From positions 1-37,789 of the forward strand of contig JALONO010000003.1 of assembly GCA_025454895.1 (NCBI GenBank): DNA of 37,789 nt. The letters run 5' to 3'. Below the pieces are notes generated by a model. That model was not told the DNA's origin, made no database searches, and was given only the letters and a program-made list of their open reading frames with translations. This DNA is from Bernardetiaceae bacterium (GTDB taxonomy: Bacteria; Bacteroidota; Bacteroidia; Cytophagales; Thermoflexibacteraceae). Position 1 is the first letter of the stretch; each line of letters opens with the position of its first letter. Shown here piece by piece: positions 33,192-37,560 of this stretch. The translations under genes and the position numbers were made by a program.

Positions 33192-34097
33192 TCATACCCC
33201 AAAAATCTTGGCCGTGTATGCCCCGGGGCTTTTCAGTTCCTTGTTCAACTTGCGCAGTTTTATCTCATACAACTTTTTGTTGATCTCTGGCAGGCTGTAT
33301 TGTAGCAGCACGGCCTTGGCTTGGTCCTTGCGCAGGCCAAACTCCACCACCAGCCGCTCAAACACCTGGGCCTGTTGCTCAGTCCAGGTTTCTTCCTCGC
33401 GCGGGGCCTGGTAATACACCGTGAACACAATTTGGGCCACCTTGCGGCCTTCCTTGCTGGTTTGGTAGCTAAACCGCAGGTCGGCCTTCTCATTGATCTC
33501 CCGCTCGGCCGGGGCCAACACCTTGTTCTCGAAATGGGTCCACTTGGGGTAAATATCCTTGCCCGTGGCGGGATCTATCAAGCCCAGCCGCTCCTTCAAT
33601 TCATCTACCGACACCTGGAAACTTTTGTTGTTCATATGCTTGTACATCGACAGCATCTCGTAAATCCGTTTGGCATACTTGCTGTTGAGCGTCAGGGCCG
33701 TGTAAAGTTGGAACGTGGTGAATTTCTCTTTCACCTCCATGTACAACGGACGGATTTTCTGCGAAAGCTCGATCTCGATCATGCCCTTGCCCTTTAAATA
33801 CTGGGCCGAGGCCACAAACGACACCTGGAGAAAATCGCCGTTGGGCATGGTGGTGCGGATGAGGCGGGTGATCAGCTTCTCCGTGGCCTTTTGCAAGTCG
33901 TTGTAACGGATCTCTTCCCCAGTGGCCCGCATGAGTTCCTTGGCCGGGATGCGGTAGAGCGTGCCCACCGGGTCTTCTTTCTTGATCTGCGACATGACTA
34001 AATACAAGATGTTTTTCTCCAGGGCCGTCATTTCATATTTGGCCGTGGTGAGCGCATTATCTTGCCTAATGGTAATGGTGTTATCAGTTTCTTTCAT
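33192..34097 (-). CDS. rep: Rep_3-family plasmid replication initiator
   Basis: This 301-residue protein is a RepB/RepE/pi-like initiator (Rep_3, tandem winged helices). The N-terminal domain has ALTTAKYEMTALEKNILYLV and the central region TTFQLYTALTLNSKYAKRIYEML, a hallmark of the family. The second domain includes FQVSVDELKERLGL and WTHFENKVLAPAEREINEKADL. ATG 34097 is chosen because upstream in-frame sequence runs through the iteron region. An iteron-like copy lies 22 bases before the start, suggesting autorepression. Monomers of such proteins bind iterons to open the origin and dimers repress their own gene. It is the only minus-strand gene in the window and converges with wbpM. Confidence 0.93.
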   Translation of the reverse strand: MKETDNTITIRQDNALTTAKYEMTALEKNILYLVMSQIKKEDPVGTLYRIPAKELMRATGEEIRYNDLQKATEKLITRLIRTTMPNGDFLQVSFVASAQYLKGKGMIEIELSQKIRPLYMEVKEKFTTFQLYTALTLNSKYAKRIYEMLSMYKHMNNKSFQVSVDELKERLGLIDPATGKDIYPKWTHFENKVLAPAEREINEKADLRFSYQTSKEGRKVAQIVFTVYYQAPREEETWTEQQAQVFERLVVEFGLRKDQAKAVLLQYSLPEINKKLYEIKLRKLNKELKSPGAYTAKIFGV

Positions 34098-34119
34098 AGT
34101 TAGATAGAGCCAAGCATAA

Positions 34120-34137
34120 CGGAGTTTTGGACAACTT
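34120..34137 (-). repeat. Iteron-like copy in the rep leader (putative operator)
   Basis: Read on the minus strand this is AAGTTGTCCAAAACTCCG, two mismatches from the distal iteron consensus AAGTTGCCAAAAACTCCG. It ends 22 bases before the rep ATG, where a bound Rep protein would block transcription or translation initiation. A role in autoregulation is inferred from position. Confidence 0.6.
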
Positions 34138-34189
34138 TCTGGTTTTCTTGCTTTTGGGGGAAGGCAAATAAACACAAAAGTTGCCGAAA

Positions 34190-34208
34190 AAAGTTGCCGG
34201 GCAACTTT
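34190..34208. repeat. Palindrome built from two iteron half-sites
   Basis: AAAGTTGCCGGGCAACTTT is a perfect inverted repeat with 9-base arms and one central base. Each arm is the AAAGTTGCC half of the iteron. Another half-site (AAGTTGCC, 34178-34185) lies directly before it. In Rep_3 plasmids, Rep dimers bind inverted half-iterons at the rep operator while monomers bind direct repeats; this palindrome is the natural dimer site. Confidence 0.7.
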
Positions 34209-34222
34209 AAAAGTGGCTTTTC

Positions 34223-34360
34223 GCCGAGCAAAAGGCAACAAAGGCGGCTTTTCGGCCGAGTAAAAGGCAACTTTACTTTCCACTATTGCCGAGTAAAAGA
34301 CAACTTTATAGCACAGCAAACAGATAAAAAGGCAACTTTTAACGAGTTAAAGGTAACTTT
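34223..34360 (-). repeat. Rep-proximal iteron array, five phased copies
   Basis: Five 20-base copies start at 34223, 34255, 34288, 34320 and 34341 (plus-strand left ends). On the minus strand the best copy reads AAAGTTGCCTTTTACTCGGC. The offsets are 32, 33, 32 and 21 bases, close to three, three, three and two turns of B-DNA, so the sites fall on one face of the helix. The first copy lacks the terminal TTT and the last two are degenerate at the CTCGG end. The first two copies share a longer flank containing GGCTTTTCG. Confidence 0.8.
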
Positions 34361-34512
34361 TGTTGATCTAACTAATTAATATTCAATGTTTTACAACCTT
34401 CTAAATAGAAGATGAAAAGAAACTTGTTCACAATTTCTTGATGTGATTTTATTTTTCTTTTCACTTTCCCTTATTGTCCCAATCTTTTATAAACCAAAAG
34501 GGGAACAAACCA

Positions 34513-34732
34513 AAGTTGCCAAAAACTCCGCACCAAAAAAGGGCCAAGTAGCAGGCTTTTAAGTTGCCGAAAACTCCGTTTAGGAGCAAGAAGGAAGACA
34601 TCCCTTGCCAAGGTTGCCAAAAATTCCGTTGTTTGCCCCGTGCCCTTCCGGCTTGGGATCAAAGGTTGCCAAAAACTCCGCAGCGAGGAAAAACAACTTT
34701 GGCCAATTCTTTAACGGAGTTTTTGGCAACTT
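34513..34732 (+). repeat. Distal iteron array, five copies about 50 bases apart
   Basis: The consensus AAGTTGCCAAAAACTCCG occurs at 34513-34530 (exact), 34561-34578, 34611-34628 and 34663-34680 (one or two changes each) on the plus strand, and at 34715-34732 (exact) on the minus strand. The offsets of 48, 50, 52 and 52 bases are near five helical turns. The array faces the AT-rich segment on its left. Confidence 0.85.
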
Positions 34733-34870
34733 TTCTACTTCTCGGTTAAGCCCTTTTCTTTCAATCTTTTGATAATGAACTCGTTACTCTATCGTATTTA
34801 CCCCGAAAACCCCTAGTTTGTGGAGCAAAGTACGAAGCTAATGTTATGGGGGAGGTCTTACGAAGCCCGA

Positions 34871-35077
34871 AAGTTGCCAAAAACTCCGCCCGGGTTGTTT
34901 CCATTAATAAAGTTTACTTTTTCTCCGCCAAATCATTTGCCTTTTATTACCAAGGTTATAGGAAGGCAATTGCGGAGATTTTGGCAACTTTTCTGTAGGT
35001 TAACGAGCAATAAAGAATCGGAAAAACCCTAAAGGAACCAGATCAACTGAAAACCAGGAAAGTTGCCTTTTTCTCCG
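34871..35077. repeat. Outlying iterons in both orientations
   Basis: Copies lie at 34871-34888 (plus, exact), 34910-34927 (plus, degenerate, T-rich centre), 34973-34990 (minus, one change) and 35060-35077 (plus, AAGTTGCCTTTTTCTCCG). The last has a T5 centre in place of A5 and so links the distal consensus with the rep-proximal array. Irregular spacing and mixed orientation suggest incompatibility or copy-control sites rather than the core origin; that is inferred. Confidence 0.75.
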
Positions 35078-35128
35078 CCTTTTTGGTTTGGTGAATTTCT
35101 ATTTTGGGAATTTTTTGGCGATTGTCAT

Positions 35129-35236: not shown

Positions 35237-35683
35237 TTGACTTTGGACGATCCGTTTGCCAATTTTGCAAAAAAAGCGAAGCCATTGAGTACTTTGAAAA
35301 CAAATGAAACCGTTAACCCAAAGCCTGTGATGCTAGTCGTGGACGACGATGCTTCCATTCGGCTTTTATTGGGCAAGATATTATCTCCCAAGTTCCAGGT
35401 CGTGGCATTAACCGATGCCGTGGGCGCATTCTCCTGGATGAGCGAGGGCAACATGCCCGACCTGGTGATCTGCGACCTCAACATGCCCGACTTTAACGGG
35501 ATGGAGTTTTTGGCCAACATGAAAAAGAGCGGCCTTTACCGCGAGGTGCCGGTGATCATGCTGTCTAGCTTTAGCCAAGAAGAAGCCGCGGCCAAGTGCC
35601 TCGAGCAAGGGGCTTTCGCTTATTTTGAAAAGCCGTTTGACCCCATTGCGGTACGGGAAACCGTAGAGAAGATATTCGCCTAA
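35237..35683 (+). CDS. Stand-alone response regulator (receiver domain only)
   Basis: This protein of about 148 residues (TTG start assumed) is a single CheY-like receiver domain after a 30-residue N-terminal extension. All key residues are visible: the acidic cluster Asp36-Asp38 in VVDDDAS, the phospho-acceptor Asp80 in VICDLNMPDFNG, Ser110/Ser111 in MLSS and Lys132 in FEKPF. There is no output domain, so it would act by protein-protein contact. No histidine kinase is in the window. It lies 637 bases upstream of a priming glycosyltransferase that has a receiver-like domain, which suggests a shared regulatory system. A later start (GTG/ATG at codons 31-32) would leave a minimal receiver. Confidence 0.9.
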   Translation: MTLDDPFANFAKKAKPLSTLKTNETVNPKPVMLVVDDDASIRLLLGKILSPKFQVVALTDAVGAFSWMSEGNMPDLVICDLNMPDFNGMEFLANMKKSGLYREVPVIMLSSFSQEEAAAKCLEQGAFAYFEKPFDPIAVRETVEKIFA

Positions 35684-36320
35684 TCCAACCACGAACCAAC
35701 CCACGATGAGAGATTTGAATAACAAAGTATAACCAGAGAAATTCTCCAAATCACTGGCATTTGCCATTGGCTAACAAAAAAACCTGGCCGCATTTTGTTA
35801 AGTAACCATTAACAGGCCGCCGTTTTTCTTGCACTATTTTTATTTAAAACAAAATATGCCCGTCATTGTTTTTCCTTTGGGAAAGGAAGACCAGGGAAAA
35901 GTGCGGAATAGAAACCTAAATTATTTAATAAATACCATACTAAACAGCAAAAGCTATCGTTTAGCTTAAAATATTACGTAAGCATATTTTACCAGGATTT
36001 TAGCTTTTTTGATGGTAAATTCATTTAACTTTGCTGAGAAAGCGAGATACAAAAAGGAACAATTTTTGTTCTGCTTTAAAAGAGGTTTGCTTAGAAAAGT
36101 TCAATTTTCGGTTAACATAGTAAATCACTCGATGAACGTACCCTTTCCAAAGGCAAATCGGGGTAAGCCAAAGAGTAAAGCACGATCAAAAGCCTGATTG
36201 GGGGCTGAAAATGAAAACACACTTATTGTTTCCCTACTCTCACTAATTCCCAATCCCCTTTTACAACTTGGCTGGGCTTAAATCCCTGATCCATGTTACT
36301 GGTTCAAAGCAACAATTTTT
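35684..36320. other. 637-base AT-rich spacer before the fused priming transferase gene
   Basis: No gene is convincingly present. A 61-codon frame starting with ATG at 36012 encodes a very basic, AT-rich-codon peptide without recognisable features and is not supported. The spacer contains a compact hairpin, TTCCTTT-GGG-AAAGGAA (35872-35888), and TGTTAA/TTAACA arms near 35814-35832. Neither is followed by a T-run. No perfect TAnnTTTG box was found. The length suggests a long leader or several promoters for the downstream gene. Confidence 0.4.
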
Positions 36321-37505
36321 ATGAGCGTAGTTTTTACTAGCCATTTAGCCGAGGTCGATCGCATGATCGCCGATGCATCGTTCACTAAACAACAAACTGG
36401 TTTGCAGAGCTTACTATACATTGGTGAGAACTCCATCCACATTTGCGCAACCATGGTGGGGCACGGCTATACCGGGCTTACTTTCAAATCGTTGCGCAAG
36501 GCGGCCGAGTGGTTGCACCACCGGGCCGAAGAGCACCAGCCGCTGCCCCAGGCCGTTATTTGCGACGACTATTTTGGGGCCCCCGGCCTCAAAAAGTTTA
36601 TCGCCGAACTGCGGGAAAACAAAGCCCTGAAAAACCTGCCCGTTGTGTTGCTCACCGAGAAACTCGATAAAGTTTCGCGCTGCAAAGCCGTGCTGGCCGC
36701 CGCCGACGATGTGCACGACTATCAACTTAAGGCCGAAGACCTGGCGTTCCGGATCGTATCGCTGCGCAAGGCCAAAGCCCTGGCCGACAAACGGAAAGTA
36801 GCCGAGGGCATGGACCCGGCCAACGACCGCGTGCCCCTAAGCCCACAGCCCGCCGACTGGTTGGTGCGGGCCAGCAGCGTGGCCAAGCGGCTGATTGACA
36901 TTGCCGCTGCCTCCGTGGGCCTGGTGTTGTTATCGCCTTTGCTGTTGATCGTGGCCGTTTTGATCAAGCTCGACTCCAAAGGCCCGGTATTCTACATATC
37001 CAAGCGGGTGGGGCGCAACTACCGGGTGTTCGACTTTTACAAGTTCCGTTCCATGCGCACCGATGCCGACAAAATGGTGGGCCAACTGGCCCACCTCAAC
37101 CAATACGAAGGGCCTAAAGACGGCAACAAAAAAGCGGCAGGCTTCGTCAAAATCGCCAACGACCCCCGGGTTACTGAACTGGGCCGGTTCTTGCGCAACA
37201 CCAGCATCGACGAGTTGCCCCAGTTGTTCAACATCCTCAAAGGCGATATGTCGTTGGTGGGCAACCGCCCGCTGCCGGTTTACGAAGCCAAAACCCTCAC
37301 CCAAGATCAGTGGGCCATGCGGTTTTTGGCCCCGGCGGGCCTCACGGGCCTCTGGCAGGTGAGCAAGCGCGGCAAAGGCGGCGATATGTCGGTAGAAGAA
37401 CGGATGCAATTGGACATCCAGTATGCCCGCGAGCACAATATCGTGAAGGACATCGAGCTGATCTTGCGGACCTTCCCCGCCCTGGTGCAGAAAGAAAACG
37501 TTTAA
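36321..37505 (+). CDS. Receiver-like domain fused to a WbaP-type priming sugar transferase
   Basis: This 394-residue protein joins two parts. Residues about 28-150 look like a CheY-like receiver: LLYIGENS, then VICDDYFG with Asp82/Asp83 at the phospho-acceptor place, Thr112 in VVLLTEKL and Lys137. The first acidic pair is missing (Gly-Glu-Asn), so phosphorylation is doubtful. Residues about 186-394 are a bacterial sugar transferase (PF02397-like): a membrane hairpin near 196-218, KFRSMRTDAD, then TSIDELPQLFNILKGDMSLVGNRP with the catalytic Asp-Glu. Such enzymes put a hexose- or HexNAc-1-phosphate on undecaprenyl phosphate. The usual WbaP/WcaJ N-terminal membrane helices are replaced here by the receiver-like part. 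Confidence 0.9.
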   Translation: MSVVFTSHLAEVDRMIADASFTKQQTGLQSLLYIGENSIHICATMVGHGYTGLTFKSLRKAAEWLHHRAEEHQPLPQAVICDDYFGAPGLKKFIAELRENKALKNLPVVLLTEKLDKVSRCKAVLAAADDVHDYQLKAEDLAFRIVSLRKAKALADKRKVAEGMDPANDRVPLSPQPADWLVRASSVAKRLIDIAAASVGLVLLSPLLLIVAVLIKLDSKGPVFYISKRVGRNYRVFDFYKFRSMRTDADKMVGQLAHLNQYEGPKDGNKKAAGFVKIANDPRVTELGRFLRNTSIDELPQLFNILKGDMSLVGNRPLPVYEAKTLTQDQWAMRFLAPAGLTGLWQVSKRGKGGDMSVEERMQLDIQYAREHNIVKDIELILRTFPALVQKENV

Positions 37506-37520
37506 CAAACTACGCCCAAC

Positions 37521-37560
37521 CAAAATTAACTTGTGCTTGATTTTGAATAAGTTAATTTTG
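37521..37560. terminator. Inverted repeat after the priming transferase gene
   Basis: CAAAATTAACTT (37521-37532) and AAGTTAATTTTG (37549-37560) are perfect 12-base complementary arms around a 16-base loop, 16 bases after the stop codon. The stem is AT-rich and has no long T-run, so it could be a weak terminator, an mRNA-stabilising structure or an operator for the next gene. Confidence 0.4.

Follow-up and report, generated by a model that had tools for sequence, protein, structure and literature searches.

A degenerate receiver domain on a priming phosphoglycosyl transferase and the response regulator encoded beside it: a candidate phosphorylation gate on glycan initiation

The window analysed here is a contig of 37,789 nucleotides (JALONO010000003.1, assembly GCA_025454895.1) from a Bernardetiaceae bacterium of the phylum Bacteroidota. 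As an exopolysaccharide locus, the contig has genes for export and chain length, a flippase, a Wzy-type protein, NeuB, an epimerase, an aminotransferase and glycosyltransferases, and near its end it encodes a priming enzyme preceded by a single-domain response regulator (RR). The features on which the analysis rests are:

36321 to 37505, plus strand: priming enzyme of 394 aa, a degenerate receiver domain joined to a small monotopic phosphoglycosyl transferase (PGT), from the open reading frame, Pfam and a predicted model
36402 to 36806, plus strand: receiver-fold domain of the enzyme, residues 28-162, with G35/E36, D82, T112 and Tyr134 at the five signature positions, from alignment, AlphaFold2, Foldseek and VIA-align
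36885 to 37502, plus strand: catalytic domain of the enzyme, residues 189-394, with the PF02397 match and the invariant D297-E298
35237 to 35683, plus strand: stand-alone single-domain RR, 148 aa if read from TTG (35327 or 35330 may be the real start), PF00072 at E 4.2e-24
35684 to 36320, plus strand: gap of 637 bp between RR and enzyme, without a plus-strand ORF of at least 80 aa
29956 to 30951: second candidate initiating enzyme, of the polytopic type (PF00953)
267 to 1010: ParA
33192 to 34319, minus strand: Rep3 initiator
34512 to 35078: six copies of a 20-nt direct repeat

Because ParA, a Rep3 initiator and direct repeats are found on the contig, it, and with it the exopolysaccharide locus, may lie on a plasmid. 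The repeats belong to two families of 20-21 nt, with 6 and 5 copies, beside the Rep3 gene within 34223-35078, and the best Rep3 matches, in a collection of plasmids only, are from Hymenobacter, Runella and Spirosoma. No exact overlap of 20-199 bases was found between the contig ends. The polytopic PF00953 enzyme is a second candidate for starting a glycan on this contig, which counts against a firm link between the monotopic PGT and any one glycan.

The catalytic part of the enzyme matches PF02397 (Bac_transf) over residues 189-389 at E 8.9e-61, with 205 bits against a cut-off of 27, and is the sole PF02397 match in a 4.58-Mb genome that is 95.55% complete. Enzymes of this family transfer a sugar phosphate from a nucleotide sugar to undecaprenyl phosphate. 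D297-E298 is invariant across 62 aligned catalytic-domain rows and we take it, by its motif, to be the catalytic Asp-Glu dyad. The catalytic role of this dyad is described in the passage on PglC in PMC12802240. The best solved relatives are WbaP-type PDB chains (E about 1e-33), and the window enzyme stays below the curated WbaP and WcaJ scores (208.2 of the 403 bits and 204.4 of the 410.75 bits needed). No transmembrane bundle is seen in the full-length predicted model, in which one long helix, residues 177-218, enters the start of the catalytic part. By sequence the enzyme is a small monotopic PGT, with predicted activity. A pattern search for a Bacteroidota-type promoter found none in front of the enzyme, the only match in the stretch examined being at 37531. 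Among its relatives, the catalytic domains of L031, L040, L041, L107 and L119 are extended between the NQY and DPR motifs by an insertion that holds several Cys and is possibly a metal site.

The N-terminal part of the enzyme is less easily recognised. Neither PF00072 nor PF13727 has a match in the whole protein or its first 185 residues at E up to 1, and receiver models (the PhoB model at E 4.4e-4, with the first 185 residues as query) and the solved receiver 3t6k (E 0.005, to the N-terminal part) match weakly. An AlphaFold2 model of residues 1-187, built from 69 aligned sequences, has a mean pLDDT of 84.9, with block means of 91-98 over residues 31-160. Its predicted elements (E29-34, H38-48, E50-55, H58-70, E78-82, H83-99, E108-112, H117-125, E130-133 and H138-161) form five beta-alpha units, as in a receiver, and the same elements are present in the full-length model. 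When the model was searched against the PDB with Foldseek, the PhoB and Rcp1 receivers came out on top (E 1.6e-7 and 2.3e-7). Among the 50 entries listed by VIA-align, Z is 14.5-15.6 over 112-130 residues and nearly all are annotated receivers or receiver-containing proteins, WbaP's own domain being absent among these rows. Residues 28-162 are confidently predicted to be a receiver domain, well beyond a chance likeness.

In a joint alignment with stand-alone receivers, the acidic pair of this domain reads G35/E36, so that the first acid is gone and a Glu stands at the second position. D82 lies at the phospho-acceptor column and T112 at the switch column, and the columns of the conserved Lys and Pro hold Tyr134 and Gln135 (residue numbers were counted by hand on the translation). 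The full signature set of acidic pair, phospho-Asp, Thr/Ser and Lys is not present in the window's fused receiver, and the domain is degenerate. The initial annotation had read the frame as a CheY-like region fused to a priming glycosyltransferase, standing where WbaP and WcaJ have membrane helices; structure prediction and the structural search bear this out, as do the PF02397 match and the lack of a transmembrane bundle in the model. Its candidates for phospho-acceptor and switch residue, D82 and Thr112, fall in the right columns, although its conserved Lys, Lys137, lies three residues off, and the loss of the acidic pair that it described holds for the first acid but not for the second.

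To see the domain among its relatives, we used a first set made up of the window, 11 genome loci and 80 contigs among the matches listed; with the duplicate L094 (the same as L031) dropped, it holds 91 PGTs. Members were picked for their similarity to the whole protein or to its N-terminus, so that the set favours fusions; it includes one bare enzyme (L118), which is left out of the 90 N-terminal domains. By record titles among the matches listed, the architecture is common in Bacteroidota, the phylum in which the initial annotation had proposed to trace it. Among the matches listed, Gly stands at the first acid in 71 of the 90 fused domains and neither acid of the pair is present in 75; the phospho-site is Glu in 44, of which 38 also have Gly at the first acid, and Asp in 20 (two of the 20 being intact). 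The conserved Lys is kept in 5 and absent in 85, and fully intact fused receivers number two (L039 and L103). PF00072 is matched at E 0.01 or better by 19 of 69 N-terminal domains and PF13727 by none of the 69. An HMM built from stand-alone receivers only is matched by 72 of the 90 at E below 1e-3, and by none of the reversed sequences. Here, as in all the linkage and residue counts below, relatedness among the sequences inflates the numbers.

The RR upstream of the window enzyme scores 85.3 bits against the PF00072 cut-off of 30.2, has the complete signature (D36, D37, D80, S110 and K132) and is the only one of the 40 PF00072 matches in the 4.58-Mb genome that lies on this contig. Such a neighbour is usual in the first set, where 82 of the 91 PGTs among the matches listed are preceded, on their own strand and within 1500 bp, by a receiver ORF no longer than 180 aa; under the same rule none of 40 control PGTs is (half of them large, and half small and mostly from other classes of the phylum). 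The two genes overlap in 32 of the 82 pairs, and the window pair is the exception in spacing, with 637 bp against gaps of at most 100 bp in the other 81. The nine enzymes without a stand-alone upstream RR are L033, L039, L066, L082, L085, L089, L103, L107 and L119, among which L085 and L089 have a degenerate receiver with no adjacent RR and L082 stops at a contig edge. There is a marked asymmetry between the two kinds of receiver in the first set, in that the signature set is kept by 71 of 81 partner RRs compared with 2 of 90 fused domains.

Several loci depart from the usual arrangement in ways that deserve mention on their own account. L118:7759-8019 encodes a shortened receiver of 86 aa overlapping the bare PGT. 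L066:4926-7802 encodes an enzyme version of 958 aa with some 600 extra N-terminal residues, with a receiver of the partner-RR group just downstream on the opposite strand and upstream ORFs that by eye resemble TIR and AAA proteins. Longer receiver ORFs, of 448-465 aa, occur upstream of the pair in L078 and L114 and on the opposite strand nearby in L103, and their size suggests NtrC-type regulators. In L034 the RR/pseudo-receiver pair lies on a contig of 53,590 bases that agrees in length, and the pair in position, with CP139022.1, a listed plasmid of Flammeovirgaceae bacterium SG7u.111.

A survey was also made with a profile of the catalytic part alone, for which 29 fused enzymes and one bare enzyme supplied the 30 domains. 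The genomes searched were 198 at class level and 148 at order level, two sets that overlap. The survey took in all 80 loci below E 1e-80 and two weaker rows (L220 and L221, both without an RR), and left out one partial match (G121, 1.8e-70) and ten weaker rows at E 2e-55 or weaker. The RR rule, a gap of -200 to 1500 and a match to either receiver HMM, was wider here than for the first set and the controls. The 80 loci comprise 53 degenerate fused, 11 intact fused and 16 bare enzymes (L242 being counted as bare by its length of 295 aa), and an upstream RR is found in 51 of the 53, none of the 11 and 12 of the 16, respectively. The mutual exclusion between an intact fusion and a separate upstream RR has a Fisher p of 1e-10, uncorrected for relatedness; the intact-fusion relatives have neither a separate RR gene upstream nor a degenerate domain. 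Exactly one full-signature receiver accompanies 68 of the 80 enzymes, fused in 11, beside a degenerate fusion in 46 (a count that includes the window RR, cut in the survey locus and intact in the window) and beside a bare enzyme in 11. The 12 exceptions are L226 and L257, with a degenerate receiver and no adjacent RR; L247, L256, L260, L263 and L265, with a degenerate RR beside a degenerate fusion; the bare L252 with a degenerate RR; and four bare enzymes without an RR.

Since bare enzymes with an adjacent RR exist, the degenerate domain, or pseudo-receiver, is not always needed. As far as sequence comparison goes, the N-terminal receiver domain is common to a PGT subfamily and its presence tracks a signalling gene. 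The initial annotation had allowed that the region might be simply a common feature of WbaP homologues without signalling function; the first half of that caution stands, for a PGT subfamily, whereas the tie to a signalling gene speaks against the second. In the closest relative by whole-length identity (G005, locus L226, of the same family), the enzyme is 55% identical over the whole protein and has no adjacent RR, and an RR 56% identical to that of the window lies on another contig, with nothing else in that genome matching at E below 1e-12.

Some RR/enzyme pairs may not use phosphorylation, because some RRs lack the full signature set: 10 of 81 in the first set and 5 of 51 in the survey, four of these five with Glu at the phospho-site (the window RR is merely cut by its locus edge). 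In L057, L068, L087, L105, L040, L247, L256, L260, L263 and L265, the phospho-site of the RR is Ser or Glu and the enzyme beside it has a degenerate receiver, so that, judged by residues, neither receiver of these pairs seems able to be phosphorylated.

Trees give some indication of how the versions are related. In a receiver tree, which has few columns and in which many forks are open, a branch with support 93/96 separates 81 partner RRs, among which the window RR groups, together with 11 fused domains and four further receivers, from 50 other receivers. The four further receivers all adjoin enzymes of the same subfamily: those of L107 and L119 overlap the called enzyme start, that of L026 lies beside a bare enzyme, and that of L066 lies downstream on the other strand. 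L039 and L103 supply the only intact fused receivers in this tree (the other 11 were left out), and both nest among the partner RRs, with support 96/89 for a grouping with the RR of L026. In the catalytic tree the intact fusions need two changes (bootstrap range 2-3), and a single change suffices in 0% of 200 bootstrap trees; the well-supported branches alone force one origin, and the bootstrap had not settled. On these sequences it is likely, but not proven, that the intact fusion arose twice. The single-sequence best matches of the fused domains are partner RRs in 38 cases and other receivers in 51, so that by this measure they are not closer to the partner RRs than to other receivers; in a profile comparison the partner HMM gives the higher score for 59 domains and the other HMM for 30, with means of 24.0 and 20.9 bits. 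We do not claim on these figures that the fused domain arose by duplication of the partner RR.

Columns that are conserved in partner RRs and less so in other receivers include W67, G71, N72, S98, G99 and Y101 (window RR numbering), all of which the window RR carries. Presumably they form the edge made by alpha2-beta3 and alpha3-beta4, at a distance from the phospho-site. Where the enzyme has a degenerate receiver, 45 of 51 RRs have Ser98; it is found in none of 12 RRs beside bare enzymes and in none of 13 intact fusions. Ser98 thus follows the pseudo-receiver more closely than the W-G-N residues do, as these persist in 5 of the 12 RRs beside bare enzymes. In a supported clade of five enzymes (100/96), L212 alone has a pseudo-receiver and its RR has Ser98, which the RRs of the four bare ones lack. 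The correlation comes from related sequences with few independent contrasts, and we propose the alpha3-beta4 loop of the RR, which holds Ser98, as the contact to the pseudo-receiver.

We consider it probable that a two-protein phosphorylation gate controls the start of surface-polysaccharide synthesis at this locus, the interaction and its sign being inferred. A kinase, presumably encoded off this contig, would phosphorylate the stand-alone RR at D80, and the phosphorylated RR would then dock on the degenerate receiver domain of the enzyme, which, with most switch residues lost, could serve as a docking platform and perhaps also as a dimer platform. Docking would alter how active the attached small monotopic PGT is, and the analogy with EpsW and EpsZ makes activation the more likely effect. 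The predicted fold, the residue states, the gene linkage and the mutual exclusion all support the gate. Against it, neighbourhood is not interaction, and the window gap of 637 bp contrasts with the usual tight spacing. That the pseudo-receiver works by binding, as the initial annotation suggested, gains indirect support from the candidate partner RR upstream in 51 of the 53 degenerate-receiver survey loci; the same annotation had the fold and the degeneracy, misplaced the Lys, and overlooked the RR upstream as well as the bare and intact-fusion versions and the spread in Bacteroidota. Pfam scans of 33 window ORFs (one partial) found none of the kinase families, and phmmer with one receiver-holding hybrid kinase matched ORFs in 12 of 92 loci, the match in L034 and L070 being the RR itself.

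The evidence has to be set against other readings of the N-terminal domain. It could be a static assembly module for homodimerisation or localisation, with the RR regulating something else and linked to the enzyme through a shared operon only. A permanently 'on' platform is plausible, given that 44 of the 90 fused domains have Glu at the phospho-site, 38 pair this with Gly at the first acid and 75 have neither acid, a state similar in kind to PhoB D10A/D53E (2jb9), which is "constitutively active" according to its PDB title. A static module, however, does not predict the absence of a separate RR in 11 of 11 loci with an intact fused receiver, nor the tracking of the pseudo-receiver by Ser98 of the RR, nor the RR kept by 12 of 16 bare enzymes, and we regard this reading as unlikely.

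More doubtful still is that in the window species the fused receiver acts alone and is itself phosphorylated at D82, despite the lost Lys and one lost acid. The window copy does retain D82, T112 and E36, and Asp is kept in 20 of the 90 fused domains, two of them intact, but the conserved Lys is absent here and in 85 of the 90, Glu occupies the phospho-site in 44, and an intact RR of the partner-RR group is present. Least credible, to the point of being very improbable, is the idea that the domain is not a receiver but a worn PF13727 remnant of the large, WbaP-type PGTs. The position in front of the catalytic domain is the same, and the PF13727 fold, like that of a receiver, is alpha/beta. This identity was rejected for want of any PF13727 match in the window protein (E up to 1) or in the 69 N-terminal domains (E up to 0.01), of which 19 match PF00072; moreover, the stand-alone-receiver HMM finds 72 of the 90 domains and no reversed sequence, and the chains listed at Z 14.5-15.6 are nearly all receivers.

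Returning to the gate of RR and pseudo-receiver, a wider proposal, for which we see the case as evenly poised, is that it operates across Bacteroidota on the commitment of undecaprenyl phosphate: a dead receiver would dock a live one through the Ser98 loop, and probably two fusions of a live receiver would have dispensed with both the separate gene and the dead domain. If true, RR control of priming enzymes would be common in Bacteroidota, and with the natural variants (pair, bare and fused) one could test directly where the contact lies, in which direction the effect goes and what the pseudo-receiver does. To our knowledge, pseudo-receivers rarely have so clear a candidate partner, and EpsW/EpsZ is the one experimental case we know of in which an RR acts on a priming enzyme. 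The receiver-PGT fusion as such is not new and has been reported in print; in the open-licence literature we found no report of the pairing with an intact RR, the exclusion between forms or the Ser98 track. How bacteria decide which polysaccharide receives the shared lipid carrier is posed as an open question in PMC12802240.

Among known systems, the PhoB receiver D10A/D53E (2jb9) is one of the tied best fold matches (Z 15.4) of the VIA-align entries listed, and the commonest fused state, with lost acids and Glu at the phospho-site, is similar in kind; this is, however, a laboratory mutant of a DNA-binding regulator, and the window copy keeps Asp at the site. The large PGTs WbaP and WcaJ have a catalytic domain homologous to that of the window enzyme, which, unlike them, lacks a membrane bundle in the model and is not matched by PF13727. 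Small PGTs may carry receiver domains, according to the discussion of PMC12802240, citing O'Toole 2021, and the receiver domain in a small monotopic PGT is the likeness to the present enzyme; the passage itself says nothing on degeneracy, a separate RR gene or exclusion. The closest functional parallel, in the same paper, is EpsW of Myxococcus xanthus, a single-domain RR that stimulates the PGT EpsZ after translation, through a direct contact that phosphorylation enhances. The support given there comes from transcriptomics, proteomics and proximity labelling, from expression in Salmonella and from a model of the complex (PMC12802240). The window resembles this in having an intact single-domain RR encoded beside a priming PGT, although its RR reaches only 52.9 of the 200 bits needed for the EpsW model NF041866 (E 2.7e-14), and although EpsZ is described there as a large PGT with a membrane bundle and a cytoplasmic DUF, whereas the window enzyme is a small PGT with a pseudo-receiver. 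Unlike EpsW/EpsZ, the window type occurs in Bacteroidota, with direct-fusion and bare variants.
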